Source of the DNA: an uncultured Cellulomonas sp.
GTDB taxonomy: Bacteria; Actinomycetota; Actinomycetes; Actinomycetales; Cellulomonadaceae
Assembly (NCBI RefSeq): GCF_947494015.1
Contig: NZ_CANLTL010000014.1
Coordinates: 1 to 64,000, forward strand
Direction: 5' to 3'
DNA: 64,000 nt
The translations under genes and the position numbers were made by a program. Position 1 is the first letter of the stretch. Each line of letters opens with the position of its first letter. The notes under the pieces are model-generated. The model was not told where the DNA came from. It saw nothing but the letters and a program-made list of their open reading frames with translations, and did no database searches. Shown here in pieces: positions 38,325-63,772 of this stretch.

Positions 38325-38338
38325 GGGACGAACGGCCC
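38325..38338. promoter_or_regulatory. DosR/OsdR-like box upstream of DUF4389-Usp operon
   Basis: GGGACGAACGGCCC, 66 bases before the start at 38259. An AGACCT element follows 24 bases downstream on the minus strand; box, spacer and the adjoining CTCAGGTCTGCCAC are repeated at 61453-61502. Confidence 0.75.
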
Positions 38339-38376
38339 ACGGGCCGCGCGGGCGGCGGCCGACGCCCGGTCCCCGG

Positions 38377-39252
38377 TCAGCGGGCGGGCTCGTCGTGGAC
38401 GACGAGCACCGTGGTGGCGGCGGCCCGGACCACCTCGTTGCTCACCGAACCCAGCAGCATGCCGGTGAAGGCGCCCAGCCCTCGGGAGCCGACGACCAGG
38501 AGGGCGGCGTCCGCCGACGTGCGGAGCAGCGCGTGCACCGCGTCCTCGTCGCGCAGGTCCAGCCGCGTGTGCAGGTCCGGGTGCTCGGTCGTCAGGTCCG
38601 CAAGGACGTCGTGCGCGGCACGAGCCGTCGGGTCCTCCTCGCCGGGTGCGCCCAGCGACGACACGTAGACCAGGCCGCTCGGACCGTACGTGGTGGGCGC
38701 CGGACGAGCGTGGACGACGACGAGCGTGGTCCCACGCAGCCTCGCCTCCCGAGCCGCGACGCGGCCGGCCGCCACGGACGACGGCGAGCCGTCCACGCCG
38801 ACCACGACGGGTCCGGAGGTGTGCCCGGTGTCGCGGACGACCGCGACCGAGCAGTGAGCGTGGGCGGCGAGGTGGGCGCTCACCCGGCCGATGCGGCTGC
38901 GGCCGGCGCGGCCGCGGGCCCCCACCACGAGCAGCCGCGCGTCCTCGCTCAGCGTCCGCAGCATCGGGACCTCGGCGCCGTGCAGCAGCTGGGACGTGAC
39001 CTGCAGCCCCGGTCGGCGTTCGCGGACCTGCTCCAGGGTGCTGTCGAGGTAGTTCTTGGCCTCGGTGTCGAAGTGCAGGTCGTCCAGGATCGGGTACCAG
39101 CTCCACTGGGTGTACTCGCGCGGCTCCTGGTAGGCGCGCGCGAGCACCACGGGCGCCCCCCGCAGCTCCGCCTCCTGCAGTCCCCACTCGAGCGTCTGGT
39201 CGCTGTGCGGCGACCCGTCGACGGCGATGACCACAGGACCCTCGGCGTTCAT
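38377..39252 (-). CDS. Tandem universal stress protein, second copy
   Basis: 291 residues, two UspA domains: VVIAVDGSPHS with a diverged first nucleotide loop (GARGRAGRSRIGRVS), then VVVGVDGSPSS with an intact GSRGLGAFTGMLLGS. GAGGAGG precedes ATG 39252. It has the same length and a closely similar sequence to the copy at 59969-60844 (EYTQ-SWYP, LLHG-VPMLR shared), so these two arose by duplication with their promoters. The first domain probably no longer binds ATP. Confidence 0.92.
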   Translation of the reverse strand: MNAEGPVVIAVDGSPHSDQTLEWGLQEAELRGAPVVLARAYQEPREYTQWSWYPILDDLHFDTEAKNYLDSTLEQVRERRPGLQVTSQLLHGAEVPMLRTLSEDARLLVVGARGRAGRSRIGRVSAHLAAHAHCSVAVVRDTGHTSGPVVVGVDGSPSSVAAGRVAAREARLRGTTLVVVHARPAPTTYGPSGLVYVSSLGAPGEEDPTARAAHDVLADLTTEHPDLHTRLDLRDEDAVHALLRTSADAALLVVGSRGLGAFTGMLLGSVSNEVVRAAATTVLVVHDEPAR

Positions 39253-39327
39253 GGCGACCTCCTCGTCCACGCGGACCGCCAGTCCGGCCCCGCCTCCAGG
39301 CTCGACCCGCACCGGGCGCCGTCGTCA

Positions 39328-39362
39328 GGGACTTCGGTCCCGATCCCGTGACCTTCGGCCCT
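39328..39362. promoter_or_regulatory. Two DosR/OsdR-like boxes between Usp and GyrI-like genes
   Basis: GGGACTTCGGTCCC at 39328-39341 and TGACCTTCGGCCCT at 39349-39362, 21 bases apart centre to centre (two helical turns). GAGCCT (39303-39298, minus) lies 24 bases from the first box and would be the -10 of the Usp gene. The second box may act on the divergent gene at 39498. Confidence 0.82.
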
Positions 39363-39497
39363 GCGCGGTGCCGGCCCCCACGCCTACGGTCGCCGGCACG
39401 GGCTCCCGTGGCCGTCCACGGGCTCGTGCCGGTGCACGGTCCAGCCGCGCACCCGGGACACCGAGGACGCGGGACGGCGCGAGGAAGGTGCAGGGAG

Positions 39498-40045: not shown

Positions 40046-42829
40046 TCAGCCGGCACCGCGGGGTGCCCGCCGTGAGCGGTGCGGGTGCCGCAGGCGCTTG
40101 TCGGCACCGACCACGGCCCAGGCCACCAGCGCGACCCCCACGATCCGCAGCCAGACCGGCCCGCCCAGCGGCGCCGTGCCGAACAGCCTGTTCATGGCCG
40201 GGACGTACGTCAGGGCGAGCTGGAGCACCAGCTGGACCGTCACACCCACGATCAGCCAGCGGTTGCCGAACGGGTGCAGGCGCCAGACCGCCCGCGTCAG
40301 CGACCGGCAGCTGACCAGGTACAGGATGCCGACGACGACGAAGAGGTTCACCGCCGCGGTGCGCGCCTGCGCCAGGCTCGCGCCCCCCGCGAGCTCCCAC
40401 CGGAACAGCCACCAGGTCCCCGCCACCAGGACGGCCGACACCAGGAGCGTGCGCAGCGTCAGGTCGCTGGTGAGCAGGGGACGCCGGGGGTCGCGCGGGG
40501 GACGGGACATGATGCCGGGCTCGGTGGGCTCGAAGGCGAGCATGAGCCCCAGCGCCACGGCCGTGGTCATGTTGATCCACAGGATCTGGGTCGGCAGGAT
40601 CGGCAGCAGCCCGCCGGCGAGGACCGCGGCGAGGATGACCAACCCCTCGGCCATGTTGGTCGGCAGGGTCCACACGATGAACTTCGTGAGGTTGTCGAAG
40701 ACCGTCCGGCCCTCCTCGACCGCCCCCTCGATGGTCGCGAAGTCGTCGTCGGTCAGCACCATGGCGGCGGCGTCCTGGGCGACGTCCGTCCCGCCGGCGC
40801 CCATCGCGATGCCGATGTCGGCCTGCTGGAGCGCGGGGGCGTCGTTGACGCCGTCGCCCGTCATGGCCACCACGTGCCCCTGGGACTGCAGGGCCCGCAC
40901 GAGCCGGAGCTTCTGCTCGGGACTGACCCGGGCGAGCACCGACGCGCGCGTCACCGCGTCGACCAGGTCGTCGTCGTCCAGCGCGTCCAGCTCGGGGCCG
41001 GTCACGACGTCGCCGGGCCGGGGGGTCTCCGGGACCAGCCCGACCTGCTGCGCGACGGCGCGTGCGGTCGTGGCGTGGTCCCCGGTGATCATCTTGACCT
41101 CGATGCCGGCGGCCAGGCACGCCTCGACGGCGGGCCGGGCCCCCGGACGCGGGGGGTCCAGCATGGCCTGGAAGCCGGTCAGCACGAGCGCGCCGGGGCG
41201 GACGTCGGGGGTCACCTCGCCGGCCCCCAGACCGGCGACGGCGGTGGCCAGCACCCGCAGGCCCCGGGACGCGAGGTCCGCGGCCGCGGCGTGGGCGGCC
41301 TCGGCGTCCAGCGCGCGGTGCGACCCGTCGGCGGCCATCTGCCACCCGCACTGGTCCACGACGCTCTCGACGGCGCCCTTAACGAACGCCACCGCGCGCC
41401 CCGTGGTGGCGTCCCGGTGCACGGTCGTCATGGAGCGACGCCCGGCGTCGAACGGGACGGTGGCGACGCGGGGGAGCTGCGCGGTGACGTCGGCGCGCCG
41501 CAGGCCGGCGGCCGCGCCGACCGCGAGCATCGCCCCCTCGGTGGGGTCGCCCAGGAGGTGGACGCCCGCGTCGTCGGCGACCAGGGTCGCGTCGTTGCAC
41601 GCCACACCGGCCACGAGGCACCAGTGCAGCGCGTGGTCGGTGCCGGCGGGCGCGGTGCCCGGGGGGCCGGCAGCACCACCCGTGCGTGCCACCACCGGTG
41701 CCCCGTCCGGCCCGACCAGGTGGCCGGTGCCGGCGTACCCGTCGCCCGTGGCGGTGTAGGTCCGTCCGGGGGTCCAGACGGTGCGGACCGTCATCCGGTT
41801 CTGGGTCAGCGTGCCGGTCTTGTCGGTGCAGATGACCGTCGTGCTGCCGAGCGTCTCCACGGCGGGCAGACGCCGGACGACGGCCCGTCGGCGCGCCATC
41901 CGGGCGACGCCGATCGCCAGCGTGATCGTCACCGCGGCGGGGAGCCCTTCCGGGATGGCGCCGACGGCCAGGGCGACGGCGGCCGTGAACGTCTCGGCGG
42001 CGTCGCGGCCGCGCGCGACGCCGATGGCGAAGGTCAGGGCCGCGAGGGCGAGGATCGCGATGGTCAGCACCCGCCCGAACTCGGCCAGTCGCCGGGTCAG
42101 CGGTGTGGCGACGCCGGTGGCGGACCGGACGAGTCGGTCGATGCTGCCGAGCTCGGTGGCGCCGCCGGTGGCGACCACGACGCCGGTGGCGGAGCCCGAC
42201 GTGACGAGCGTCCCGGAGAACAGCGTGTTGCTGCGGTCGGCGACGGCGGTCGTTCCCGGGAGCACGACGTCGTGCTTGGGGACCGGGACCGACTCGCCCG
42301 TGAGGGCCGATTCGTCCGCCTCGAGCCTGGTGGCCCCGAGCACGCGCAGGTCCGCCGGCACCCGGTCACCGGCCTCGACCAGGACGAGGTCGCCGACCAC
42401 GAGCCCGCGGGCGTCGAGGGCGTGCTCGGCGCCGTCGCGGACCACGCGCGCGCGGGCGGACACCATGGACCGCAGGGCCTCGAGCGACGCCTGCGCCTTG
42501 GACTCCTGGAGGGCGCCGACCACCGCGTTCACCACGACGACCCCGAAGATGACGGCGGAGTCGACGCGCTCGCCGAGGACGGCGGTGACGACGCCCGCGA
42601 CCAGCAGGACGTAGATGAGCGGGTCGTGCAGCTGGCGGACCAGCCGGAGCACCGGTCCGGCGCGACGGGCGGCGGGCAGCTCGTTGGCGCCCTCGGTGCG
42701 CAGACGCCGGTCCGCCTCCTCCGTGCCGAGGCCGCGGTGGGCGTCGGTGCCGAGCTGCGTCACCACCTCGGCGGACGGCAGGGCGTGGGCCGCGACCCGG
42801 CCGCCGGTCCCCTCGCTGGTGGTCGTCAT
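40046..42829 (-). CDS. P-type cation-transporting ATPase (type II, CtpF/Ca2+-ATPase-like)
   Basis: A 927-residue P-type pump of full length. Seen in order: N-terminal cation-ATPase domain, two helices, actuator domain with [17 protein letters not shown] helix 4, phosphorylation site D336 in [23 protein letters not shown] hinge, and four to six C-terminal helices. PEGLP and the type II layout point to Ca2+, Na+ or a similar ion. In Mycobacterium the DosR regulon contains the type II pump CtpF, so a matching role is plausible. It is the last gene of a four-gene operon with an ABC-2 exporter. Confidence 0.9.
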
Positions 42830-42861
42830 CGTCGTCCCGTCCTCCGCGCGCCCGCTCCACC

Positions 42862-43146
42862 TCATCGACGTCGATGCCTGAGGAGCTCCGCACCGTGGGG
42901 CCGGGGCGCCGGGGGTGGGAGCGCCTGGGCGTGCAGTGCTCCGGTGACCCGGACCCGCACGGGGACGCCGTCGACCGCGGGCGGCACCGCGGCGCGGACG
43001 TCGTCACCGGTCACGGCGACCTGCAGCTCGTAGCCGTCGCCGCAGCGAGCCAGACCGACGCCGCAGACCCCGTCGTCGTCCGCGAGCCGGGCGCGCAGCC
43101 GCTCCTTGGCGGCTCGTGCGGCGGCCAGGCCCGCCCCCGGGGTCAC
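42862..43146 (-). CDS. Small hypothetical protein between ABC exporter and P-type ATPase
   Basis: A 94-residue soluble protein ([49 protein letters not shown]). GTG 43146 overlaps the permease stop by 4 bases and has the near-perfect ribosome site GGAGGTGA 4 to 7 bases before it, so it is surely translated. I do not recognise a family; one helix followed by a four-stranded sheet is likely, reminiscent of ferredoxin-like or BON-like folds. A coupling or regulatory subunit is possible. Confidence 0.65.
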
Positions 43147-44927
43147 GGGGTCACCTCCCGCTGGTCGGCGGGCCGACCCGGGCGCGGTCCCGGGGTCGTC
43201 GCGGCGGCGTCCCAGCGGAATCTGCGCACGGCGACCAGGCCGGCGCCGAGCGCCCAGGCGAGCAGCACACCGACGTGGACCCACCCGATCGACGCGCCGG
43301 CCGGGTCCCACGCCGCGGCCAGCGCGTTCTGCAGGTGCTTGAGCGGGAACAGGTCACCGACCCGCGACATCCACGTGGGCACGTCGTTGATGAACACGTC
43401 GGAGAAGAACGCCAGCGGCAGCAGCACCACGAGCCCGACCGCCCCGACCGAGCCGGCGTCCGGGGCGAGTGCGGCGAGCGCGAAGCCGCACGCGGCCAGG
43501 CTGAGCATCCCGACGACCAGCACGCCGAGCCCGAGGAGCAGACCACCCAGGGTGGGCCGGACCCCGTAGGCCCCGCGGCCCACGACCAGCACCGACGCAG
43601 CAACGACCAGGATCAGCGCGAGACCGGCCGTCGTCCGACCGGCGAGGTAGTGCCACGGCCGCAACGGGGTGCCCCGCAGGCGCTTGAGCACTCCCCGGTC
43701 CCGGGCGGTGGCGACGGACTCGGGCACGTTCATGAACGCCGTGACCGCGGTGCCCCAGGTCACCATGCTCGCGGCGAAGACGTCGGCGAAGCGGACCCCG
43801 GGGCGGATCTCGAACGAGGCGCCCTGCATGGTGACCATCAGGGCGTACAGGCCGACCGGCAGGACCAGCGCGAAGAACACGGCACCGGGGTCGCGGCGCG
43901 TCGAGCGCACCGCGGCGGACACCTGCCCGGCGACCAGCGCGCCGGCGGCGACCCGGCCGGTGCCAGGCCGGCTGGTGGGCACCCGGTGGGTGCGGACCCG
44001 GTCCGGTCGGCCGGTGGCCCGCAGCGGCTGGTGCGGCTGGGGCGGTTGGACCGGCTGGAGCGGTTGGAGCGGCCGGTGCCCGGGGTGCACCGGCCCGGCC
44101 CGGCGAGCCGTCCTGCCGTCGTCCCTCACCCGGCCGGACCAGCGCGTCGCGACCGCGGCGGCGACGATCCCCCACGCGGCGATCACCGCCAGCGCCCCGG
44201 GCTCCCACCCGGCGCCGGCCCGGAAGGGGTTGAACTGGTGCTGCAGCGCCTCGACGAACGGCTTGAGGGGGAGTGCGCTCCCGGCCCGGTCGAGCCAGGT
44301 CGGCAGCGTGCCCCCGACCGTGAACATGCCCGAGACGAACGTCAGGACCACCGCGGTCGCGATCGAGCCGGCCTGCGCGACGGCGGTCGACGGCGACAGG
44401 ACGGAGAACGCCACGCCCATCGCCGCGAAGCACACCGTGCCCACGAGCAGGGTGACCAGGGTCGCCGGGACGGTCCGCCAGACGATCTGCACGTCGTACG
44501 CCACGACGGCCAGGGCCAGGACGGCGGTCACGGCGGCCAGGGCGTAGGCCGCGGCCGCGCCGATGCGGGCGGCGAGGAACACCCGCACCGGCATGGGGGT
44601 GCCCCGCACCCGACGGACCGTGCCCAGCTCACGGGCCTGGGTCAGCGAGATCGCGACCGTGGGGAACGCCGCGTAGAGCACCCCCATGGCGGCGGCGACC
44701 GGCGTGACGAACTGCATGAGCCGCACACCGCCGGCACCCTCGACGGTCGCGTTGCCGGCGAGGACGCCGATCACGAGGAGCCAGACCAGGGGCAGCGCGA
44801 GGGTGAAGACGAGGACGACACGCGCCCTCCACAGGCCGACGCAGGCGTGGGCGAGCTGGTCGAGCAGCTGGCGGGGCGCGCGCGACCGGGGGGCGGCGAC
44901 GGGAACGGGCGCGGCGGTGGCGTGCAT
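43143..44927 (-). CDS. ABC-2 type exporter permease, two permeases fused
   Basis: A 594-residue protein with two complete ABC-2 membrane domains. The first covers residues about 25-265 (VFTLALPLVWLLVIGVLAGN, ELGTVRRVRGTPMPV); the second about 330-570 (VFFALVLPVGLYALMVTM, RGVLKRLRGTPLRPWHYLAG). They are joined by a linker rich in Pro and Gln (PLQPLQPVQPPQPHQP). Normally two separate chains pair; here one chain provides both. It follows the ATPase gene by 9 bases. Exports an unknown compound. Confidence 0.88.
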   Translation of the reverse strand: MHATAAPVPVAAPRSRAPRQLLDQLAHACVGLWRARVVLVFTLALPLVWLLVIGVLAGNATVEGAGGVRLMQFVTPVAAAMGVLYAAFPTVAISLTQARELGTVRRVRGTPMPVRVFLAARIGAAAAYALAAVTAVLALAVVAYDVQIVWRTVPATLVTLLVGTVCFAAMGVAFSVLSPSTAVAQAGSIATAVVLTFVSGMFTVGGTLPTWLDRAGSALPLKPFVEALQHQFNPFRAGAGWEPGALAVIAAWGIVAAAVATRWSGRVRDDGRTARRAGPVHPGHRPLQPLQPVQPPQPHQPLRATGRPDRVRTHRVPTSRPGTGRVAAGALVAGQVSAAVRSTRRDPGAVFFALVLPVGLYALMVTMQGASFEIRPGVRFADVFAASMVTWGTAVTAFMNVPESVATARDRGVLKRLRGTPLRPWHYLAGRTTAGLALILVVAASVLVVGRGAYGVRPTLGGLLLGLGVLVVGMLSLAACGFALAALAPDAGSVGAVGLVVLLPLAFFSDVFINDVPTWMSRVGDLFPLKHLQNALAAAWDPAGASIGWVHVGVLLAWALGAGLVAVRRFRWDAAATTPGPRPGRPADQREVTP

Positions 44928-44936
44928 CGGTCGGCC

Positions 44937-45884
44937 CTACCGTCCGGCACCGGTCGGCACCTGCGCACCGGCGGGTGCCGGTGTCGCCGCCGCGTCGCCG
45001 ACGAGCTGGAGGTAGACGTCCTCGAGCGAGGGACGGTGCACCCCCAGGTCCGTCAGCGCCATGCCGCGGCTCAGCGCCCAGCCGGTCAGCCTGTGCAACG
45101 CACGCAGCGGGTCGGTCGTGGTCAGGCGCCGTTCGGGACCGTCGCCGACCAGGAGGCCGTCGAGGTCCGGCAGCGGCTCCGCCATCCGGTCGTGCGGCAG
45201 CCGGAACGTCACCACCGAGCTCCGCTGCCCACCGGTGAGCTCGCCAGGAGCACCGAGCGCGACCAGCCGACCGTGCACCACCACGGCCACGCGGTCCGCG
45301 AGGTGCTCGGCCTCGTCCATGTAGTGCGTGGTCAGCAGGACCGTGGTGCCCAGGTCGCGCAGCCCGTCGACCAGCTCCCAGGCGCGCCGGCGCGCCGACG
45401 GGTCGAAGCCGGTCGTGGGCTCGTCGAGGAAGAGCAGCTCGGGATCCCCGACCAGCCCCAGGGCGAGGTCCAGGCGACGGCGCTGCCCGCCCGAGAGGGT
45501 CTTGACCCGGGCGTCCCGCTTGTCGGCCAGGCCGACCTGCTCGACGACGGCGTCCACGGGCAGCCGGCGCGGGTACATGCCCGCGTAGAGCCGGACGAGC
45601 TCACCGACGGTGAACTCCTCCTCGAAGCCCGCCTCCTGCAGCACGATCCCGATCCGCGCGAGCAGCTGCGGGTCCCGTGCGGCCGGGTCGTGGCCGAGCA
45701 CCCTCACCGAGCCGCCGCTGCGCGCGCGGTGCCCCTCGAGGATCTCGACCGTCGTGGTCTTGCCCGCGCCGTTCGGCCCGAGCAGCGCGAAGACCTCGCC
45801 CCGCTCGATGGTGAAGGAGAGCCCGTCCACGGCGACCAGGTCGCCGTAGACCTTCCGCAGCCCGTCCACCTCGACCGCTGCCAT
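44937..45884 (-). CDS. ABC-2 type exporter ATPase (DrrA-like)
   Basis: A 315-residue ATPase: Walker A GPNGAGKT (residues 36-43), Q loop in IGIVLQEAGFEEEFTV, signature LSGGQRRR, Walker B LLFLDEPTTGFD and the H-loop TTHYMDEAEHLADR; a C-terminal domain of about 80 residues follows, as in drug and polysaccharide exporters of the DrrA type. ATG 45884 has GGAGG upstream. First gene of the operon ABC ATPase, fused permease, 94-residue protein, P-type ATPase. Confidence 0.92.
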   Translation of the reverse strand: MAAVEVDGLRKVYGDLVAVDGLSFTIERGEVFALLGPNGAGKTTTVEILEGHRARSGGSVRVLGHDPAARDPQLLARIGIVLQEAGFEEEFTVGELVRLYAGMYPRRLPVDAVVEQVGLADKRDARVKTLSGGQRRRLDLALGLVGDPELLFLDEPTTGFDPSARRRAWELVDGLRDLGTTVLLTTHYMDEAEHLADRVAVVVHGRLVALGAPGELTGGQRSSVVTFRLPHDRMAEPLPDLDGLLVGDGPERRLTTTDPLRALHRLTGWALSRGMALTDLGVHRPSLEDVYLQLVGDAAATPAPAGAQVPTGAGR

Positions 45885-45981: not shown

Positions 45982-45995
45982 GGGACTTCGGTCAC
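45982..45995. promoter_or_regulatory. DosR/OsdR-like box upstream of the ABC/P-type ATPase operon
   Basis: GGGACTTCGGTCAC, 98 bases before the start at 45884. TACCGT (45957-45952, minus), the best -10 of the whole series, is 24 bases downstream. Confidence 0.78.
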
Positions 45996-46019: not shown

Positions 46020-46298
46020 TCACCGGCGGCGCAGCGACTCCATCTCGGCCTCGATCCGCGCCTCCGAGGGGCCGGGGGACAGCACGTCCCAGGCGTGGAA
46101 CACCAGGCCGATGCCCCAGCCGAGGATGGGGAACACCGGCCAGAAGAACCCGGCGCCGACCATCCACCAGATGACGACCAGGGTGACGTTGACCAGGACG
46201 TACGCCACGACGTGAGCGGCCAGGTCGCGTCGGGCCTGCAGGCGCCTGACCGCCCGGGCGCGCAGCTCGTCGGCGTCGGGCAGCATGGGGTGACTCAT
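46020..46298 (-). CDS. 2TM domain protein
   Basis: A 92-residue protein of the 2TM family: basic N-terminal helix (DELRARAVRRLQARRDLAAH), two hydrophobic helices (VAYVLVNVTLVVIWWMV, FFWPVFPILGWGIGLVFHAW) and a C-terminal charged helix. GGAG lies 6 bases before ATG. Similar domains are fused to histidine kinases and regulators; stand-alone forms have no known role. It has its own regulon box. Confidence 0.8.
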   Translation of the reverse strand: MSHPMLPDADELRARAVRRLQARRDLAAHVVAYVLVNVTLVVIWWMVGAGFFWPVFPILGWGIGLVFHAWDVLSPGPSEARIEAEMESLRRR

Positions 46299-46386: not shown

Positions 46387-46400
46387 GGGACGTTCGGCCC
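46387..46400. promoter_or_regulatory. DosR/OsdR-like box upstream of the 2TM gene
   Basis: GGGACGTTCGGCCC, 89 bases before the start at 46298, with GACCGT (46363-46358, minus) exactly 23 bases downstream. Confidence 0.75.
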
Positions 46401-50123: not shown

Positions 50124-50149
50124 GGCGGGCTCACCTCTCTCGGGTCGGG

Positions 50150-51734: not shown

Positions 51735-51763
51735 CGCGCACGCTCCTTCGTCACCGGGCCACG

Positions 51764-54966: not shown

Positions 54967-55015
54967 GGGACCAAGGACCCGGCCCGCCGCGGGGCGTCGC
55001 GGGGCCGAAGGTCCC
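54967..55015. promoter_or_regulatory. Two DosR/OsdR-like boxes between flavodoxin and PPDK genes
   Basis: GGGACCAAGGACCC (54967-54980) has GAGCCT (54943-54938, minus) 23 bases downstream, serving the flavodoxin-Usp unit. GGGCCGAAGGTCCC (55002-55015) has CACGGT (55039-55044, plus) 23 bases downstream, serving PPDK. Confidence 0.8.
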
Positions 55016-55159: not shown

Positions 55160-57910
55160 ATGCCGAAGTACATCGTCGACTTCGCCGACGGGAACAAGGA
55201 CCTCGCCGACCTGCTCGGCGGCAAGGGTGCCAACCTCGCGGAGATGACCCGCCTGGGTCTGCCCGTGCCGCCCGGGTTCACCATCACCACGCAGGCCTGC
55301 CGCGCCTACCTGGCCGACGGGCACCTGCCGCCGGAGCTGCGGGTCGAGCTCACGATGGCGGTGCGCCGCCTGGAGGACGCCGTCGGCCGCGGGCTCGGCG
55401 ACGTGCACGACCCCCTGCTGGTCTCGGTGCGGTCCGGGGCGCGGTACTCGATGCCGGGGATGATGGAGACGGTGCTCAACGTCGGTCTCAACGACGCGAC
55501 CGTCCAGGGCCTGGCCAAAGGCTGCGGCGACGACCGGTTCGCGTGGGACTCCTACCGCCGGCTCATCCAGATGTTCGGCCGCACGGTGCTGGGGATCGAC
55601 GGTGACCGGTTCGCCGACGCGCTGGACGCCCTGAAGGCGGACCGTGGTGTCTCGGCGGACACGGACCTGACGGCCGACGAGCTCAGGCTCCTGGTCGAGC
55701 GGTTCAAGCACATCGTCCGGCAGGACGCCGGCCGCGACTTCCCCCAGCACGCCCGCGAGCAGCTGGACCTGGCCATCGCGGCGGTGTTCGGGTCGTGGAA
55801 CACCGACCGGGCCCGGCTCTACCGCCGTCGCGAGCGGATCCCGCACGACCTGGGCACCGCGGTCAACGTGGTGACCATGGTGTTCGGCAACCTCGGGCCG
55901 TCCTCCGGGACGGGGGTCTGCTTCACCCGCGACCCCGCGACCGGCAAGCCCGGCAGCTACGGGGACTACCTGCCCAACGCGCAGGGTGAGGACGTCGTCG
56001 CGGGCATCCGCAACACCCTCAGCCTGGCCGACCTCGCCGAGCTCGACCCCACGAGCTACGCGCAGCTGCGCCAGGCGATGCGGCGGCTGGAGACCCACTA
56101 CCGCGACCTGTGCGACATCGAGTTCACGATCGAGCGCGGCCGGCTGTGGATGCTGCAGACGCGGGTGGGCAAGCGCACGCCGGCGGCGGCGTTCCGGATC
56201 GCGAGCCAGCTCGTCGACGAGCACCTGGTGACACCGGACGAGGCGCTCGGCCGGGTCACCGGCCAGCAGCTCAGCCGGCTGATGTTCCCGCAGTTCGACG
56301 CGGATGCCGACCGTCGGCCGCTGACGCGCGGCATGGCGGCGTCCCCGGGCGCCGCGGTGGGCCGGGCGGTGCTCGACTCCGCCCGCGCCGAGGCGTGGGC
56401 CGCCGACGGACGCGACGTCGTCCTCGTCCGCCGGGAGACCAACCCGGACGACCTCGGCGGGATGATCGCCGCCGCGGGCGTCCTCACCACGCGCGGCGGC
56501 AAGACGTCGCACGCGGCGGTGGTCGCCCGCGGCATGGGCACGACGTGCGTCGTCGGCGCCGAGGAGGTGCAGGTCGACCTCGCGGCACGGTGCTTCTCGG
56601 TCGGCAGCACGGTCGTCCACGAGGGCGACGTCATCGCGATCGACGGCGGCACCGGCGAGGTCTTCCTCGGCGCGGTCCCCGTCGTGGCGTCCCCGGTGGT
56701 GCGCTACCTCGACGAGGGGCTGGAGTCCGCCCTGGCGCACGCCCGGGACGACGACACCCGCGAGCTCGTGCGGGCCGTCGACCGGCTGCTGCGCCACGCC
56801 GACGCGGTCCGGCGTCTGCACGTGCACGCGAACGCCGACACCGCCGCCGACGCGCGCCGCGCCCGGGGATGGGGCGCCCAGGGCGTCGGGCTGTGCCGGA
56901 CGGAGCACATGTTCCTCGGCGAGCGCCGGGTCCTCGTCGAACGGCTGATCCTCGCCACCGACGACGCCGAGCGTCAGGCCGCGCTGGACGCGCTGCTGCC
57001 GCTGCAGCGGGCGGACTTCGTCGCGCTGCTGGCCGAGATGGACGGGCTGCCGACGACGATCCGGCTCATCGACCCGCCGCTGCACGAGTTCCTGCCGGAC
57101 CTCACCGAGCTCTCGGTCCGGGTCGCGGTCGCGGACGACCGCGTCGCGCGCGGCGCACCGAGCGACGACCCGGACGCCCTGGCCCGCGACCACCGGCTGC
57201 TGACCGCGGTCCGGCGCATGCACGAGGCCAACCCGATGCTGGGGCTGCGGGGCGTGCGGCTGGGGCTCGTGGTCCCCGGCCTGTTCGCGCTGCAGGTCCG
57301 GGCGGTCGCCGAGGCGGTCGCCCGACGGGTCGACGACGGCGGGGAGCCCCGCGCCGAGATCATGGTCCCGCTGGCGGCGTCCGTCATGGAGCTGCAGCTC
57401 GTGCGGGACGAGGCCGAGCGCGTCATCGCGGCCGTGTCCGCCGAGACCGGCGTGCCGCTGCGGATCCCGATCGGCGCGATGATCGAGCTGCCCCGGGCCG
57501 CCCTCACCGCCGACCGGATGGCGGCCGCCGCGGAGTTCTTCTCCTTCGGCACGAACGACCTCACCCAGACCACCTGGGGGTTCAGCCGCGACGACGTGGA
57601 AGGGGCGTTCTTCGCCGAGTACACCGACCTCGGCGTGCTGACCGTCTCCCCGTTCGAGACGATCGACCGCCGCGGCGTGGGCCGGCTCGTGCGGATCGCG
57701 GTCGACGAGGGACGCACCGTTCGCCCCGACCTCGTGCTCGGCGTGTGCGGTGAGCACGGCGGGGACCCGGAGTCGGTGCACTTCTTCCACGACGCGGGAC
57801 TGGACTACGTCTCGTGCTCGCCGTTCCGCGTGCCGGTCGCCCGCCTGGAGGCGGGCCGGGCCGCGGTCGTCGCCTCTGCCGGCTCCGCCGGCGGCGCCGA
57901 CACCCGCTGA
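55160..57910 (+). CDS. ppdK: Pyruvate, phosphate dikinase
   Basis: A 916-residue PPDK of full length. Seen: N-terminal ATP-grasp part (GGKGANLAEMTRLGLPVPPGF), phosphohistidine H451 in GGKTSHAAVVARG, PEP/pyruvate barrel with VGLCRTEHMF, and C863 in LGVCGEHGGD. It interconverts pyruvate + ATP + phosphate and PEP + AMP + pyrophosphate; in energy-poor cells it can save ATP by using pyrophosphate in glycolysis. PPDK also belongs to the OsdR cluster of Streptomyces. GGGAGG precedes ATG. The S33 hydrolase follows by 34 bases. Confidence 0.95.
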   Translation: MPKYIVDFADGNKDLADLLGGKGANLAEMTRLGLPVPPGFTITTQACRAYLADGHLPPELRVELTMAVRRLEDAVGRGLGDVHDPLLVSVRSGARYSMPGMMETVLNVGLNDATVQGLAKGCGDDRFAWDSYRRLIQMFGRTVLGIDGDRFADALDALKADRGVSADTDLTADELRLLVERFKHIVRQDAGRDFPQHAREQLDLAIAAVFGSWNTDRARLYRRRERIPHDLGTAVNVVTMVFGNLGPSSGTGVCFTRDPATGKPGSYGDYLPNAQGEDVVAGIRNTLSLADLAELDPTSYAQLRQAMRRLETHYRDLCDIEFTIERGRLWMLQTRVGKRTPAAAFRIASQLVDEHLVTPDEALGRVTGQQLSRLMFPQFDADADRRPLTRGMAASPGAAVGRAVLDSARAEAWAADGRDVVLVRRETNPDDLGGMIAAAGVLTTRGGKTSHAAVVARGMGTTCVVGAEEVQVDLAARCFSVGSTVVHEGDVIAIDGGTGEVFLGAVPVVASPVVRYLDEGLESALAHARDDDTRELVRAVDRLLRHADAVRRLHVHANADTAADARRARGWGAQGVGLCRTEHMFLGERRVLVERLILATDDAERQAALDALLPLQRADFVALLAEMDGLPTTIRLIDPPLHEFLPDLTELSVRVAVADDRVARGAPSDDPDALARDHRLLTAVRRMHEANPMLGLRGVRLGLVVPGLFALQVRAVAEAVARRVDDGGEPRAEIMVPLAASVMELQLVRDEAERVIAAVSAETGVPLRIPIGAMIELPRAALTADRMAAAAEFFSFGTNDLTQTTWGFSRDDVEGAFFAEYTDLGVLTVSPFETIDRRGVGRLVRIAVDEGRTVRPDLVLGVCGEHGGDPESVHFFHDAGLDYVSCSPFRVPVARLEAGRAAVVASAGSAGGADTR

Positions 57911-57944: not shown

Positions 57945-59522
57945 ATGGCCAGCACCCTGCACCCGACGCGAGCGCCGGCACGGACGCCGCGACGGGCCGG
58001 CCGTCCGACGGCGCCCCCGCGGCGGCTCACCCGGCGGTCGACCGGCCGCCGGTGGCGCCCGGCCGGCGCCGCGGTCCTGCTCGCCGGCGCGGCCGGCGTC
58101 GTCACCGGGCAGCTCATGCCGCTCGGCCCCACGTCGGCCGGGACGGCGCTGGCGGTGATGGCCACCGGCGCCGTCCTCGGGGCGGCCGGCGGCCGGGCGG
58201 TGCGCTCGGCGTGGTCGGTGGTCCCGCTGGCGGCCGTGCACCTGGCCGCCCTGGAGATCGCGCGCAGCGACCTGCTGCTGCCCACGGTGCACGACCTGCG
58301 GCCCGGCTCGACCTGGTGGCTGCTGGTCCAGCTGCTGGGGCGCGGCCTGCACGGCGTGCTGCTGCTGCTGCCGATGGTGCTCGCGGCGCGGCTGACCTCG
58401 CGCGCCGGGCGCGGCGACGCGCCGGCCCGCCACCCCCGGGCGTCCACGGCGACCACCGGCCTCGTCGGGGTGCTGGTGGCCGTGCTCGCCGTCCTGGTCG
58501 CGCTGCCGGCCACGACACCCCCCGTGCGCGACGCCGACGGGCAGGTGGTGCCCGGGAGCATCGCGACCCTGGACACCGTCGTCCTGGGTGGGGACCCGCA
58601 CACGGTGATGATCCGGGCGGCCGATCCGGACGCGCCCGTCCTGCTGTACCTGTCCGGTGGCCCCGGCCAGTCCGACCTCGCGCTCGCCCGGGTCCTGTCC
58701 GAGCCGTGGGTCGACGACGTCGTGTTCGCCACCTTCGACCAGCGGGGCAACGGCACCTCGTACCCCGCGCTGCTGCCGACGCGGGACGCGACGCTGGCGC
58801 GTGCGGTGGCCGACGTCGCGGAGCTCGCCGAGTACCTGCGCGCCCGCTTCGACGAGGACAAGGTGATCCTCCTGGGGGAGTCGTGGGGGACCCTGCTCGG
58901 CGTGCTGACGGTGCAGCAGCGGCCGGACCTGTTCCACGCCTACCTCGGCAGCGGTCAGATGGTCGACGTCGCCGAGACCGACCGGCGCATCTTCCGCGAC
59001 CTGGTCGCCCACGCCCGGCGCACCGGTGACGAGCAGCTCGCGGCGCTGACGCGCCGGATCGGCGAGCCGCCGTACGCGGACGAGCCGTGGGCCAACGCCG
59101 AGGTCATGGCCGCCTACGGCTACCTGTACGACCCCTACACGCCGCCGGCCGGCTACCGGGCCCGTGGCGCGGCGTCGGGCCTGGACGGGTTCGGCCTGCG
59201 CGGGGTCGAGTACACCCTGACCGACAAGGTCGACGTGCTGCGGGGGCTGGTCGACACCTTCTCGGTCCTGTACCCCCAGATCCAGGACCTCGACCTGCGC
59301 GACGACGTGCCGCAGCTGGGGGTGCCGGTGTTCGTCCTGGACGGCGCCGCCGAGCTGGACGGGCGGCGGGACCTCGCCCTGGAGTGGTTCGACACGCTGG
59401 ATGCTCCGAGCAAGCGTCTGGTGAGCTTCCCGGACGCGGCCCACGCCGTCGCCTTCGAGCAGGCCGACGCCGTCGACCTGCTGCTCGAGCGGGAGGTCCT
59501 GCCGCTGGTCGGTCAGGGGTAG
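57945..59522 (+). CDS. Membrane-anchored S33-type alpha/beta-hydrolase
   Basis: A 525-residue protein: basic N-terminus, about five helices in the first 190 residues (AGAAVLLAGAAGVVTGQL, LLVQLLGRGLHGVLLLL, LVGVLVAVLAVLVALPA), then an extracellular alpha/beta-hydrolase domain with SGGPGQSD (oxyanion), nucleophile in LLGESWGT, and a terminal histidine in PDAAHAVAF. The layout is like proline iminopeptidase. CGGAGG precedes ATG 57945. Peptide or lipid-ester hydrolysis at the cell surface is possible. Confidence 0.83.
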   Translation: MASTLHPTRAPARTPRRAGRPTAPPRRLTRRSTGRRWRPAGAAVLLAGAAGVVTGQLMPLGPTSAGTALAVMATGAVLGAAGGRAVRSAWSVVPLAAVHLAALEIARSDLLLPTVHDLRPGSTWWLLVQLLGRGLHGVLLLLPMVLAARLTSRAGRGDAPARHPRASTATTGLVGVLVAVLAVLVALPATTPPVRDADGQVVPGSIATLDTVVLGGDPHTVMIRAADPDAPVLLYLSGGPGQSDLALARVLSEPWVDDVVFATFDQRGNGTSYPALLPTRDATLARAVADVAELAEYLRARFDEDKVILLGESWGTLLGVLTVQQRPDLFHAYLGSGQMVDVAETDRRIFRDLVAHARRTGDEQLAALTRRIGEPPYADEPWANAEVMAAYGYLYDPYTPPAGYRARGAASGLDGFGLRGVEYTLTDKVDVLRGLVDTFSVLYPQIQDLDLRDDVPQLGVPVFVLDGAAELDGRRDLALEWFDTLDAPSKRLVSFPDAAHAVAFEQADAVDLLLEREVLPLVGQG

Positions 59523-59878
59523 GCCAGCGCCGCCCGGCCGTCCGTCCGGCCGGCCGCCGCCGGCCGCTCGAACCGCACCGCCCACGGGTGCGCACCGCGC
59601 CCGCACGCGATCCAGCCGTCACGCTGGATGTCGCGTCGCAGGGTGTGCAGCGCGCGGTTCATCCCCGGGGCGACGTCCTCCCGGGGGTCGCCGCCCTCGC
59701 CCGGTCGGGGACCGGGGAACGGCGGGCTGACGTAGAGCAGCCGACCACCCCGGCGTGCCACGAAGCGCAGCACGGTCGCCGCGTCGCCCGGGACCGGCCG
59801 CGCCGACGGCGCCCCCCGAGCGCCCGCACGAGGGCAGTGCTCGAGCTCGATCACCAGGGTGTCGGTGCATGCGTCCAT
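59513..59878 (-). CDS. Small hypothetical protein, probably leaderless
   Basis: A 121-residue soluble frame (VLRFVARRGGRLLYVSPPFP, NRALHTLRRDIQRDGWIACG, GAHPWAVRFERP) with no recognised family. No ribosome site precedes ATG 59878, but GATCGT (59890-59885) at 23 bases from a regulon box puts the transcript start at the ATG itself, so leaderless translation fits. Convergent with the S33 hydrolase, overlapping it by 10 bases. Confidence 0.6.
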   Translation of the reverse strand: MDACTDTLVIELEHCPRAGARGAPSARPVPGDAATVLRFVARRGGRLLYVSPPFPGPRPGEGGDPREDVAPGMNRALHTLRRDIQRDGWIACGRGAHPWAVRFERPAAAGRTDGRAALAYP

Positions 59879-59913: not shown

Positions 59914-59927
59914 GGGGCGGAGGTCCC
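59914..59927. promoter_or_regulatory. DosR/OsdR-like box upstream of the 121-residue protein
   Basis: GGGGCGGAGGTCCC, 36 bases before 59878, with GATCGT 23 bases downstream on the minus strand. Confidence 0.62.
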
Positions 59928-59968: not shown

Positions 59969-60844
59969 TCAGTGCAGGGCGTCGTCGTGCACGACCAGCA
60001 CCGTGACGGTCGCGGCCCGGACGACCTCGCTGCTCACCGCGCCCAGCAGCATCCCGCGGAAGGCGCCGAGACCGCGCGAGCCCACCACGAGGAGGCCCGC
60101 GTCCGCCGACGCGTGGACCAGGGCGTGCACCGGGTCGTCGTCGACGAGGTCGAGGCGGACGTCGAGCCCCGGATGCTCCGCGCGCAGACCCGCCACCACG
60201 GCCTCGGCGGCACGACGCGTCGGGTCGTCGGCGTCGGCGGTGGCCAGCGGGGACAGGAACATCAGACCGTCGGTGCCGTACGGCACCTGCGTCGGCCGGC
60301 CGTGCACGACGACCAGCGCGACGCCGCGCAGCACGGCCTCCCGGGCCGCGACGTGAGCGGCCGCGACCGAGGAGGTGGAGCCGTCGACACCCACGACGAC
60401 CGGGGCGGCCCGGTGGGCGAGGTCGCGCACCACCGCGACCGGGCAGCGTCCGTGCGCGGCGAGGTGGGCGCTGATCCGGCCGATCCGGGGGCTCTCGGAG
60501 TGGCCCCGCGCGCCGACCACGAGGAGCTGGGCGTCCTCGCTGACGGAGCGCAGCATCGGCACCGTCGGGCCGTGCAGCAGCCGGGTGGTGACCGGCAGCC
60601 CGGGCCGTCGGGCGGTGGCCTGGCGCGTGGCGTCGGCGAGGTACTGCGCGGCCTCGTCGCCCCACCGCACGTCGCCGACCACCGGGTACCAGCTCGCCTG
60701 GGTGTACTCGTGCGGGTCCTGGTAGGCCCGGGCGAGCACGGCCTCGGCTCCACGCAGCTCGGCCTCGGCGAGTCCCCAGTCGAGCGTCCGCCGGCTGTGC
60801 GGCGACCCGTCGACGGCGATGACCACGGCACCCTCGGGTCGCAT
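59969..60844 (-). CDS. Tandem universal stress protein, fifth copy
   Basis: 291 residues, close paralogue of 38377-39252 (same length; VVIAVDGSPHSRRTLDWGL, EYTQASWYP, LLHGPTVPMLRSVSED). Domain 1 nucleotide loop GARGHSESPRIGRIS is degenerate; domain 2 GSRGLGAFRGMLLGA keeps the glycines. GAGGAGG precedes ATG 60844; its box lies at almost the same distance as in the paralogue. Confidence 0.92.
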   Translation of the reverse strand: MRPEGAVVIAVDGSPHSRRTLDWGLAEAELRGAEAVLARAYQDPHEYTQASWYPVVGDVRWGDEAAQYLADATRQATARRPGLPVTTRLLHGPTVPMLRSVSEDAQLLVVGARGHSESPRIGRISAHLAAHGRCPVAVVRDLAHRAAPVVVGVDGSTSSVAAAHVAAREAVLRGVALVVVHGRPTQVPYGTDGLMFLSPLATADADDPTRRAAEAVVAGLRAEHPGLDVRLDLVDDDPVHALVHASADAGLLVVGSRGLGAFRGMLLGAVSSEVVRAATVTVLVVHDDALH

Positions 60845-60920: not shown

Positions 60921-60934
60921 AGGGACTTCGGTCC
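60921..60934. promoter_or_regulatory. DosR/OsdR-like box upstream of the fifth Usp
   Basis: GGGACTTCGGTCCC, identical to the box at 39328, 77 bases before 60844, with CATCCT (60898-60893, minus) 22 bases downstream. Confidence 0.82.
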
Positions 60935-60935
60935 C

Positions 60936-61394
60936 TCACCGGTCGGCCGCCCGACGCCAGCCGCGGCGTCGGGCGTCGCTCCCCAGCGCGGCCAGGGTCA
61001 CCGCCGCCGCGCCGAAGACCGCCTGCAGGGGGTGCGGGCCGATGAACGGGACCTGCACGACCAGCTCCACCGCCAGGGCACCGGCGGCCAGGAGCACCAC
61101 GTCGGGTGCGTGCGGGGAGCGCCGGGCCGCCAGCAGCGCGGCCGCCCCCGACGGCACGGCGACGGTGCCGGCGAGCCAGACACCCGGCAGGACCCAGCTG
61201 GACAGCCCGAGCGGTGCGATCGCCGCCACGGGAGGTGTCCCGAGGCCGGCGACGAGCGCGGCGGCGCCACCGAGGCCGGCGACTGCGACGAGTGACTCGG
61301 CGGCGATCAGCACGCGGCGGTGCGGGAAGCACCCAGCAAAGGACGGCGGGGTGCCGACGGCGGTGGTGCCAGCGGACCGACCGGAGCTCATCAT
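60936..61394 (-). CDS. Hypothetical four-helix membrane protein
   Basis: A 152-residue protein with four hydrophobic segments (LIAAESLVAVAGLGGAAALVA, WVLPGVWLAGTVAVPSGAAA region, VVLLAAGALAVELVVQVPFI, LQAVFGAAAVTLAAL). GGGAGGG lies 8 bases before ATG 61394; GTG three bases upstream is an alternative. The third helix has a glutamate and HP follows it. No family recognised; actinobacterial small membrane proteins like this often accompany Usp genes. Divergent from WS/DGAT. Confidence 0.7.
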   Translation of the reverse strand: MMSSGRSAGTTAVGTPPSFAGCFPHRRVLIAAESLVAVAGLGGAAALVAGLGTPPVAAIAPLGLSSWVLPGVWLAGTVAVPSGAAALLAARRSPHAPDVVLLAAGALAVELVVQVPFIGPHPLQAVFGAAAVTLAALGSDARRRGWRRAADR

Positions 61395-61488: not shown

Positions 61489-61502
61489 GGGACGAACGGC
61501 TC
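61489..61502. promoter_or_regulatory. DosR/OsdR-like box between the membrane protein and WS/DGAT genes
   Basis: GGGACGAACGGCTC, 95 bases before 61394 and 148 before 61650. AGACCT (61464-61459, minus) is 24 bases downstream, as in the DUF4389 promoter. Confidence 0.72.
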
Positions 61503-61649
61503 ATCCTGGCCCTCGGCGCCGTGCCCGAGCTGCCCGGCGGTCACCCGGGGCACCACGCCGGGGCGACGCCGGCCGTGATCGTGCCGTTGGTCCCTGGCGG
61601 CACCGGAGCGACCCGGCTGAGGTGGAGGGGACCGGGGGAGGAGGGACAC

Positions 61650-63038
61650 ATGGACGCGGTGCGCGCCTCGGCACCCAGGGTCGCCGTGGACCGGCTGCGC
61701 CCCGGCGACGTCCTCGAGCTCGCGACCGACGTCGGGCCCGCCCCGTCGAACGTCGGGGCGCTGCTCCTGCTGAGCGGCGACGTGCCGGCCGACGCCGTGC
61801 AGGACGCGCTCGTGGACCGGCTCGGACGCGTCCGGCGGCTGGCCGACCGGGTCGTCAGCCCCCCGCGCCCGCTGGGGCGCCCGTACTGGGCCCGCGACCC
61901 GGGGTTCGACGTCCGCGACCACCTCTCGCAGCTCCGGTGCGTGCGGACCGACGACGACGCGCTGCTCGCCGTCGCCACCGACGCGGTGACGTCCCCGCTG
62001 CCCCGTCACCGCCCGCTGTGGCGGGTGTCGGTGCTCGTGGGGCCGGCCGGCACGGCGGTGGGCGTCGTGGTCGTCCTGCACCACGTCATCACGGACGGCG
62101 TCGGGGGCCTGGTCCTGCTCGCGCGCCTCGCCGACGGCGTGGACGTCGCGGCGCGCCACGACACCGCCGGCTCGCGGCGCGGGCCGACCACCGGAGCGCT
62201 CGCCCGGGACGTGCTCGCCCGGGCGCTGGCCGGGCTGCGGGGGGCGCCGGCGTCGGCGCGGCTCCTGGCACGGGGCGCGGTCGAGCTCGGGGTCTCGGGC
62301 CACGGCGCCGTGCTGGCCCCACGGACCTCGGTCAACGCCCCGACGGGACCCTGTCGCCGGGTCACCGTGGTCGACGTCGACCTCGTCGGGGTGCGGCAGG
62401 CCTCACGCCGGCACGACGCGACGGTCAACGACGTCCTGCTGGTCGCGGTCGCGGGCGCGCTCGGTCGGCTGCTCGCCGGGCGGGGCGAGCACCCGCCCGA
62501 GCTGGTGGTGTCCGTGCCGGTGTCCGGCAGGCCGTCCGGCCGTGACGACCTGGGCAACGACGTCGGCGTGATGCCCGTGCGGGTCCCGGTGCACGGGACG
62601 CGTGCGGAGCGGCTCGCGTGCGTGAGCCGCCGGACCCGGGCGCAGAAGGCGGCGGGCCGCGGCTCCTCCAGCGCCCTGGTCGGGCCGGCGTTCCGGCTCC
62701 TCGCCCGGCTCGGGCTCTTCCCCGCCCTCATCGACCGCCAGCGCCTGGTCAACACCTTCCTGTCCGACGTGCGCGGGCCGTCCCAGCCCCTGCTCCTCAG
62801 CGGCGCACCGGTCGTCCGGACGATCCCGCTCGTCGTCAGTGCCGGCAACGTCGCCGTGGCGTTCGCGGCGCTGTCGTACGCGGGACGCCTCACCGTGTCC
62901 GTGGTCGTCGACCCCGAGCTCGTGCCCGACCTCGAGGTCCTGCGGGCCGGGCTGGAGGACGAGCTGCGGGACGTGCTGCGGGACGTGCTGCCCCGCGGTG
63001 GCGCGCAGGACGGCGTCCTGCACGAGCCAGGCGCCTGA
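61650..63038 (+). CDS. Wax ester synthase/diacylglycerol acyltransferase (WS/DGAT)
   Basis: A 462-residue bifunctional acyltransferase. The active-site HHVITDG (residues 144-150) fits HHxxxDG; VNDVLLVAVAGALGRLL, the GNDVGVMPVRVPV (structural GN) and NTFLSDVRGPS motifs are conserved. GGAGGAGG precedes ATG 61650. It makes triacylglycerol or wax esters as storage lipid at the membrane. In Mycobacterium tuberculosis the main such enzyme, Tgs1, is under DosR, which matches its place here. Confidence 0.92.
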   Translation: MDAVRASAPRVAVDRLRPGDVLELATDVGPAPSNVGALLLLSGDVPADAVQDALVDRLGRVRRLADRVVSPPRPLGRPYWARDPGFDVRDHLSQLRCVRTDDDALLAVATDAVTSPLPRHRPLWRVSVLVGPAGTAVGVVVVLHHVITDGVGGLVLLARLADGVDVAARHDTAGSRRGPTTGALARDVLARALAGLRGAPASARLLARGAVELGVSGHGAVLAPRTSVNAPTGPCRRVTVVDVDLVGVRQASRRHDATVNDVLLVAVAGALGRLLAGRGEHPPELVVSVPVSGRPSGRDDLGNDVGVMPVRVPVHGTRAERLACVSRRTRAQKAAGRGSSSALVGPAFRLLARLGLFPALIDRQRLVNTFLSDVRGPSQPLLLSGAPVVRTIPLVVSAGNVAVAFAALSYAGRLTVSVVVDPELVPDLEVLRAGLEDELRDVLRDVLPRGGAQDGVLHEPGA

Positions 63039-63073
63039 CCGCCGCGGGGGTGGCGTCGGCGTGCCGAGCGGGC

Positions 63074-63721
63074 TCAGCACGCCGACCGTGGCACGGGCTG
63101 CCCCGCGGGCGCCGGCCGGGTCGGTGACGGTGGCCGTGCCGGCCTCAGCCGGCGCACCACCGCGGCCACCTGCGCCGTGGCGTCGGGCACCGGCACCGCC
63201 AGGGTGTCGGCGACCTGACGGTCGGTGAGCCCGCTGGCGACCAGCCGCACGACGCGCCGCTGCGACGGCGTCAGGGTCGCCGTCACGCCCGGGTCGGCGC
63301 CGCCGGTGAGCCGCGCGCGCACGCGGGCCTCCGCGGCCGGGTCGAGGGCGGTGCCGCCGCGGCCGGCGCAGCGCACGGTGTCGGCCACGTCGAGCCGGCG
63401 CAGGTCGCGCAGGACGCACCCGGCGGCGCCGGCCAGCACGAGCTGCAGGACGGTGTCGTCGTCGTCCAGCGAGGTCAGCACCAGCACCGCGACGTCGGGG
63501 TCCACCGACCGCATCCGGCGGCACACGCCGATCCAGTCCTCGTGGTGCAGGTGGTCGTCGAGCAGGACGACGTCCGGGTGCAGACGGGACGTCGCCGTGC
63601 CCGCGTCGGACGCCGTCACGGTGGCCCCGACCAGCACCAGACCGGGCGCTCGCCGGACGGCGACGCAGAGGGTGGCTCGGACGATCTCGTCGTCGGCGAC
63701 CACCAGGACCCCGACATCCAT
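63074..63721 (-). CDS. Atypical NarL/DevR-type response regulator
   Basis: 215 residues. Receiver domain residues 1-120: acidic pair DDE at 10-12, phosphoacceptor D55 in VVLLDDHL, T83-S84; the invariant lysine before the last helix is arginine (R105 in GCVLRDLR). The LuxR-type domain starts LTPSQRRVVRLVASGLTDRQ but its recognition helix reads PVPDATAQVAAVVRRL, lacking the TVKNH-type DNA contacts of DosR. It may not bind the usual site, or not be phosphorylated normally. Divergent from a GAF sensor kinase; box between them. Confidence 0.82.
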   Translation of the reverse strand: MDVGVLVVADDEIVRATLCVAVRRAPGLVLVGATVTASDAGTATSRLHPDVVLLDDHLHHEDWIGVCRRMRSVDPDVAVLVLTSLDDDDTVLQLVLAGAAGCVLRDLRRLDVADTVRCAGRGGTALDPAAEARVRARLTGGADPGVTATLTPSQRRVVRLVASGLTDRQVADTLAVPVPDATAQVAAVVRRLRPARPPSPTRPAPAGQPVPRSAC

Positions 63722-63758
63722 GCGCCCGATCGTGCCTGCGCGGCAGCGCGCGGGTGCA

Positions 63759-63772
63759 GGGTCGAAGGTCAC
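63759..63772. promoter_or_regulatory. DosR/OsdR-like box between response regulator and sensor kinase
   Basis: GGGTCGAAGGTCAC, 38 bases before the regulator start. CACGAT (63734-63729, minus) 24 bases downstream lies 7 bases before the ATG, so the regulator mRNA would be leaderless. Suggests autoregulation. Confidence 0.65.

Follow-up and report, generated by a model that had tools for sequence, protein, structure and literature searches.

The 64,000-nucleotide stretch analysed here (the window) comprises positions 1 to 64,000 of contig C14 (NZ_CANLTL010000014.1; 134,792 bases, GC content 74-75%) in the 4.28-Mb, 44-contig genome of an uncultured Cellulomonas sp. From 38 kb onwards the contig carries a series of short palindromic boxes upstream of genes, in a region that extends past the window to 103 kb (65 kb in all, hereafter the island). 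Island members within the window include five universal stress proteins (Usps), a DUF4389 protein, an ABC transporter/P-type ATPase operon, a 2TM-domain protein, a DUF305 protein with a zinc alcohol dehydrogenase (ADH), a sulfur operon, a 184-residue membrane protein, a flavodoxin with pyruvate phosphate dikinase (PPDK), and a wax ester synthase/diacylglycerol acyltransferase (WS/DGAT); genes for a DevS-like GAF histidine kinase and for DevR lie at and just past the window end (Table 1). Based on sequence comparison, we predict with a probability of roughly 0.86 that boxes and island together form a dormancy regulon of the DevR/DosR/OsdR type.

Table 1. Boxes and genes of the island, with one related gene on contig C4. 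Positions refer to contig C14 unless another contig is named; box scores are those of the symmetrised matrix, and distances run to the start codon.
Feature	Position	Strand	Relation or remark	Score
Box GGGACGAACGGCCC	38325-38338		65 bases before DUF4389 gene	17.7 (leave-one-out 16.9)
Box GGGACTTCGGTCCC, perfect arms	39328-39341		57 bases before Usp 38377-39270
Box GTGACCTTCGGCCC	39348-39361		pair with 39328 box, offset 20 bases
Box GGGACTTCGGTCAC	45982-45995		97 bases before ABC transporter/P-type cation ATPase operon
Box GGGACGTTCGGCCC	46387-46400		88 bases before 2TM-domain gene
Box GGGTCGTACGTCCC	47443-47456		74 bases before Usp 46439-47368
Box GGGCCGTTCGTCCC	48230-48243		52 bases before DUF305 gene; 152 before zinc ADH gene
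Box candidate GAGCCGAAGGTCCC	51846-51859		110 bases before SQR start, within 3' end of 51764-52252; extra to the 15	14.2
Box GGGGCGAAGGTCCC	52311-52324		58 bases before sulfur operon
Box AGGACCTTCGGCCC	52676-52689		105 bases before 52795-53349; weakest of the 15	11.3 (leave-one-out 8.4)
Box GGGACCAAGGACCC	54967-54980		77 bases before flavodoxin-Usp; 179 before PPDK
Box GGGCCGAAGGTCCC	55002-55015		pair with 54967 box, offset 35 bases
Box GGGGCGGAGGTCCC	59914-59927		35 bases before hypothetical gene
Box GGGACTTCGGTCCC, perfect arms	60922-60935		77 bases before Usp 59969-60844
Box GGGACGAACGGCTC	61489-61502		94 bases before 60936-61394; 147 before WS/DGAT
Box GTGCCGTTGGTCCC	61581-61594		55 bases before WS/DGAT; extra to the 15	15.6
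Box GGGTCGAAGGTCAC	63759-63772		67 bases before kinase gene; 37 before 63074-63721
Box	65497		22 bases before devR	12.2
Usp gene	35967-36800	-	follows DUF4389 gene
DUF4389 gene	36820-38259	-
Usp gene	38377-39270	-
ABC transporter/P-type cation ATPase operon	40046-45884	-	presumed from spacing
2TM-domain gene	46020-46298	-
Usp gene	46439-47368	-
DUF305 gene	47479-48177	-
Zinc ADH gene	48396-49451	+
Sulfur operon	49608-52252	-	four genes, transcribed in reverse of the order below
DsrE2-like gene	49608-50123	-
TusE/DsrC-like gene	50150-50464	-
SQR (sulfide:quinone reductase) gene	50475-51734	-
Short-protein gene	51764-52252	-	first gene of operon
Conserved hydrophobic protein gene	52795-53349	+	184 aa
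Flavodoxin-Usp	53427-54889	-
PPDK gene	55160-57910	+
Hypothetical gene	59513-59878	-
Usp gene	59969-60844	-
Gene	60936-61394	-
WS/DGAT gene	61650-63038	+
Response regulator gene, degenerate DNA-binding end	63074-63721	-	without KTVKN; divergent from kinase gene
DevS-like GAF histidine kinase gene	63840-65480	+	546 aa; window holds 63840-64000
devR gene	65533-66249		receiver-GerE protein; starts 1.5 kb past window end
DevR2-like gene	C4:5786-6457		product 47% identical to DevR

Genes were called with a purpose-written, non-standard caller (codon usage plus a start/ribosome-binding-site score), by which start positions are approximate and which under-calls genes in relatives with lower GC content. 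A position weight matrix was built from 15 boxes and symmetrised, and the reversed matrix or reversed pattern served as control. Twenty 20-kb stretches from other parts of the genome served as background (44.0 kb intergenic and 356 kb coding), and held-out DNA was C14 from 64 to 103 kb, beyond the window (4.34 kb intergenic and 34.7 kb coding); besides the window, the full matrix was applied to about 17% of the genome. Sites, enrichment, conservation of some sites, and the regulator pair with its key residues by alignment were computed here.

The original prediction, made from the window alone, had listed 15 boxes between genes, 36-118 bases from a start, and had described them as a compact set. 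The letters of all 15 were found where it had placed them, 12 in the same register and three displaced by one base (39349 to 39348, 52677 to 52676, and 60921 to 60922); by our own gene calls all are intergenic, with the nearest start codon 35-112 bases away. The boxes are thus real, but the set is larger than listed, with additional boxes at 61581 and 51846 and an island reaching approximately 103 kb, across which 33 intergenic boxes score at least 11. The symmetrised matrix reads aGGGMCSWWSGKCCCt, in which G1-3, C5, G10, and C12-14 are almost invariant, A is preferred at position 4 (18/30), G or C occupies positions 6 and 9 in 27/30, and A or T occupies the two centre positions in 26/30.

The placement of the boxes, unlike their raw count, departs from chance. 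With at least 9 of 10 arm positions required to agree, the template GGGAC-N4-GTCCC matched 25 times across 7.1 kb of intergenic and 8 times across 57.9 kb of coding island DNA, versus 10 and 27 times, respectively, in background (island versus background intergenic, p ~1.6e-14). Matches as frequent inside genes as upstream, which had been named as incompatible with a regulon, were not observed: in held-out DNA the matrix gave 17 intergenic and 3 coding matches at a score of at least 11 (background 1 and 12), 14 and 2 at 12 or above (background 0 and 8), and 17 and 4 at 10 or above (background 2 and 23). Palindromic boxes of the general form GGGNC-N4-GNCCC upstream of genes are likewise enriched over background. 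Of the 31 occurrences of the strict pattern GGGNCNWWNGNCCC genome-wide, 13 fall inside the island, only one of these (87869) within a gene, while its reversed control occurs at 11 places in the whole genome. Outside the island, the first 38 kb of C14 contain two matches of at least 12, an intergenic one that coincides with a gene start (28672) and a coding one; the last 32 kb contain a single intergenic match (132389, score 20.5), which precedes a second GAF kinase gene. The devR neighbourhoods of 20 relatives contained 52 intergenic matches in 47.8 kb versus 19 coding matches in 342 kb, compared with 4 and 10 for the reversed matrix.

A DosR/OsdR-type regulon, as had been proposed, calls for a cognate regulator, and both a DevS-like kinase and DevR were found in the island. 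The best solved match of DevR is M. tuberculosis DevR (3c3w, E 6.5e-74), and alignment to 3c3w reveals an identical recognition helix, FLAEKTVKNYVS, with K179, K182, and N183 kept. These three are the base-contacting residues of DevR according to the accessible text of PMC4082495, and KT[VI]KN is kept in 29/29 of the relatives' DevR loci examined. The kinase finds its best solved matches in 2vzw (E 1.1e-50), which we take to be DosT, and in four DevS GAF-A sequences (E 3.1e-43 to 3.4e-42). Equivalents of the proximal His149 and distal Tyr171 align with its residues 127 and 149, retaining the 22-residue spacing, and its GAF-A domain is predicted from this conserved pair to be of the haem type. 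In the second GAF kinase (C14:132478), the corresponding motifs, matched by eye, likewise contain a histidine (residue 121) and a tyrosine (residue 143). Among 56 loci of relatives, boxes precede 10/14 devS homologues and 11/26 devR homologues (control 0), and the box at 63759 is a candidate autoregulatory site.

Two further DevR-like sequences occur in the island. The response regulator encoded divergently from the kinase is 37% identical to DevR across DevR residues 26-199 and may act as a phosphate sink or non-DNA-binding partner. A 67-codon open reading frame at C14:98118-98321 (L010:14118-14321), which a weak box (9.2) precedes by 2 bases, couples the beginning of a receiver with the end of a DevR-like DNA-binding domain (56% to DevR 191-235) and resembles a devR copy with an internal deletion.

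The general scheme would then run as follows. The haem-type, DevS-like GAF kinase would sense loss of O2, or NO, CO, or H2S, and would phosphorylate DevR, which in turn would bind boxes of the form aGGGMCSWWSGKCCCt, most of which lie 35-150 bases upstream of a start codon. Going by DosR and OsdR precedents, DevR would activate clustered stress, energy, and redox genes, namely those for nine Usps, PPDK, zinc ADHs, P-type ATPases, flavodoxin, WS/DGAT, SQR-TusE-DsrE2, and the orphan membrane protein, while boxes before devS and devR would provide autoregulation. As a limited literature search found no prior description of a DosR-type regulon in the Cellulomonas group, this would extend the dormancy regulon to an actinobacterial group for which none was found, and would do so in a compact setting, given the density of boxes across the 65 kb.

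Three known systems come closest to the island. The box has the same palindromic form as that of OsdR (SCO0204)/OsdK of Streptomyces coelicolor, whose boxes also crowd the regulator gene in the part of PMC5069765 available. The genes named in the original prediction (Usps, WS/DGAT, PPDK, zinc ADH, GAF kinase, and others) are present as claimed, and the gene set shares with the accessible portion of the OsdR table Usps, PPDK divergent from a Usp-containing unit, zinc dehydrogenases, and hemerythrin (PMC5069765). Differences from the same portion are that the sulfide operon, WS/DGAT, and P-type ATPases are boxed here and missing there, and that position 4 is mostly A here versus C in the OsdR consensus AGGGCCGATCGGCCCT (PMC5069765). 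Also unlike OsdR, no nitrate reductase was found among the island genes scanned here. The DevS-type GAF kinase, the identical helix, the GGGAC...GTCCC box type, and the Usps resemble DosR/DevR of M. tuberculosis, whose regulon content and layout serve here as general background, outside the comparison. Positions 6 and 9, G or C in this genome, are T and A in the DosR core as quoted in the original prediction. Judged by base preferences, the matrix combines traits of the DosR core (A at 4) with those of the OsdR consensus. PolS-PolR of Microlunatus phosphovorus is also a DevS/DevR-like pair in an actinobacterium, but its motif in the available part of PMC6754071, GTTCACnnnnnGTTCaC, is a direct repeat, unlike the palindromic box found here.

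Additional members had been proposed beyond the classical gene content, and these did not fare equally. Conservation backs the sulfur operon and the protein encoded at 52795-53349, two targets outside the classical set, of which the protein belongs to a family boxed in many genera, while DUF4389, 2TM, DUF305, and the other proteins of no known function are supported by boxes of this genome only. The SQR scores 603.8 bits against NF049943 (cut-off 525), a type III 'selenoprotein subtype' model, although the SQR here has cysteine. Its C162 and C334 are invariant in 7 sequences and align with the cysteines of a solved sulfide:quinone oxidoreductase; family score and both active-site cysteines are thus those of a sulfide:quinone reductase, as which it is predicted. 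Selenocysteine was considered for the SQRs of six relatives with in-frame stops and was rejected, as these fall at the C-terminal end and resemble normal termination codons. DsrC proper has two C-terminal cysteines, CysA and CysB. The 50150-50464 product passes the TusE/DsrC/DsvC subfamily model but has only the penultimate cysteine there, and is therefore referred to as TusE-like. The short protein that opens the operon is homologous to the product of C14:131852-132319 (-) (34% over 100 aa, E 3e-12); neither belongs to a known family, and both are encoded directly behind a box.

At 22/34 SQR loci, our own included, a box of at least 11 was found no more than 350 bases from SQR or from the gene that opens its presumed operon (control 0/34). 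These loci came from 10/100 family relatives (at least 63% identity) and 24/296 other genomes of the order sample (E <= 1e-120), with one genome in common; four boxed loci are from one genus (L254, L256-L258). Of the 12 loci lacking a box, 11 lack any site of at least 10, and at least one (L262) was only partly gene-called. The sulfur operon is thus predicted to be a conserved additional target of the box regulon. According to the accessible text of PMC9062744, ferric DosS binds H2S, its autokinase activity increases with H2S, and without DosS the increase in Dos regulon expression driven by H2S does not occur. SQR would pass electrons to quinone and sulfur to TusE/DsrE2, which would make the operon a fitting target for an H2S branch and, if true, would give the reported H2S sensing a direct metabolic output. 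By analogy, we tentatively suggest that in Actinotalea, Cellulomonas, and related Actinobacteria DevS-DevR might also be a sulfide-response system, in which haem DevS would sense H2S and DevR or DevR2 would induce SQR-TusE-DsrE2, closing a detoxification loop. A limited literature search found no description of such a loop, nor of a DsrC-DosR link.

The 184-residue membrane protein had no Pfam match at E <= 1 and no NCBIfam match; it may resemble DoxX. Twenty-three columns are invariant in 20 sequences. At the 36 named loci fetched by this protein, a box of at least 11 stands within 400 bases upstream of its gene in 22, and the same loci overall hold 83 intergenic and 12 coding matches (control 10 and 10). 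When the 20 devR neighbourhoods are added, 42/53 homologues are boxed versus 2/53 with the reversed matrix, and the gene is likewise predicted to be a conserved additional target. For orientation, one island protein has its best named relatives in Cellulomonas sp. APG4 (87% identity), Actinotalea ferrariae (85%), and A. solisilvae (82%), by which the source is most likely related to Actinotalea and Cellulomonas.

Support for other members, by homologues boxed in the 56 loci, varied. It was complete for Usp 35967-36800 (6/6), flavodoxin (5/5), the Rv2632c-like protein (3/3), and the second kinase (2/2), and partial for the short-chain dehydrogenase (2/3), Usp 88177-89055 (2/3), P-type ATPases (1/3 and 1/2), and the second zinc ADH (1/2, control also 1); other usp group(s) were boxed singly.

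A number of results weigh against a regulon so defined. GGGAC-N4-GTCCC with one mismatch occurs 18 times in the whole window against 12.3 +/- 3.3 expected, and as 7/100 shuffles reach 18, the raw count alone is weak evidence. None of the PPDK homologues (0/2) is boxed in the 56 loci, and the 14 loci with no box of at least 11 before the gene of the 184-residue protein include L063 (87%) and L065 (78%), close relatives by this protein. Wider membership is challenged by a V/A-type ATPase operon (C14:68307-76624, L009), one subunit of which is present in 6/100 family relatives: a box (76813, score 13.0) lies 188 bases upstream here only, and since 0/6 relatives show an intergenic match of at least 9.5, the operon was dropped as a conserved member. 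The strict pattern occurs at 2579 places in 101 family genomes versus 1772 for the control, and its excess does not differ between the 44 genomes with DevR (E <= 1e-55, own included; mean 7.8) and the 57 without (mean 8.1; p 0.76), so that box occurrence does not track this regulator across genomes, a comparison confounded by DevR2-like proteins. In seven SQR-operon relatives the best DevR-like protein is only 43-49% identical, with EKTVKN in 7/7 (one, G088, barely reaches E 1e-55 and was placed with the genomes that have DevR), and 6/7 nonetheless have an SQR box of at least 11. Given the equal excess and these SQR boxes, this DevR has no exclusive claim to the box.

The simplest reading is one box with two readers, DevR and DevR2, and the DevR2-like protein encoded on C4 may read the same box. 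It is possible, if doubtful, that the box is read chiefly by this DevR2-like protein, or by both, which would make the island a regulon of two overlapping regulators, with the DevS-DevR pair as one input only. Besides the kept EKTVKN, the SQR boxes in six of the seven relatives, and the absence of correlation with DevR noted above, this would accord with the location of the DevR2 gene 2.6 kb from adhE (C4:5786-11789, L041), which has a box of 11.9 here. A box of at least 11 was found at 8/30 adhE loci including our own (control 0; 30 of 75 adhE genomes sampled), and several relatives have a weaker box-like sequence, such as CAGGACCTTGGGCACA, approximately 80-90 bases upstream, which suggests that fermentation (adhE) is under a related switch. 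Boxes cluster, however, at devS-devR, before both genes, and at devR orthologues in relatives, and C4:1-20000 has only two matrix matches of at least 11, one of them coding. This possibility overlaps with the DevR-type regulon, and the confidence in one does not exclude confidence in the other.

That the boxes are a dispersed repeat or mobile element, and not an operator, is very improbable. Many short, similar copies do occur in one island, some in tandem (39328/39348 and 54967/55002), and pairs 15 bases apart are present on contigs C19 and C15, but what the copies have in common is a degenerate 14-16-base palindrome at constrained distances from start codons (flanks were not systematically compared). 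Palindromes that arose by chance in DNA of very high GC content and were selected by eye would suit the raw count in the window and are less credible still, being contradicted by the intergenic enrichment in held-out DNA and across species and by the boxed SQR loci and membrane-protein homologues, with controls of 0 and 2.

The DevR/DosR/OsdR-type regulon would include further genes past the window, where the island encodes a short-chain dehydrogenase, a DUF2188 protein, an aldolase, and an Rv2632c-like protein (C14:101814-102095) with a weak box only (8.7). Of the nine Usp genes called in the island, four lie past the window: 80037-81080 and 88177-89055 have a box of at least 12 directly upstream, one ends the V-type ATPase operon, and one has only a weak site. 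Elsewhere in the genome, in stretches that are not a sample because they were picked for pattern matches, two intergenic boxes of at least 11 each stand before the genes for a paralogue of the 184-residue protein (C15) and for a small hydrophobic protein (C19). Other such boxes precede adhE, a radical-SAM gene, the gene for an ETF-domain protein, and a PfkB kinase/hypothetical pair; within 350 bases of the one at C7:202319, no gene starts. A second flavodoxin-like protein, judged by eye and without a Pfam match, is encoded past the window, as is a P-type ATPase with a C-terminal hemerythrin domain (C14:84684-87008; L010:684-3008) that has two boxes upstream.

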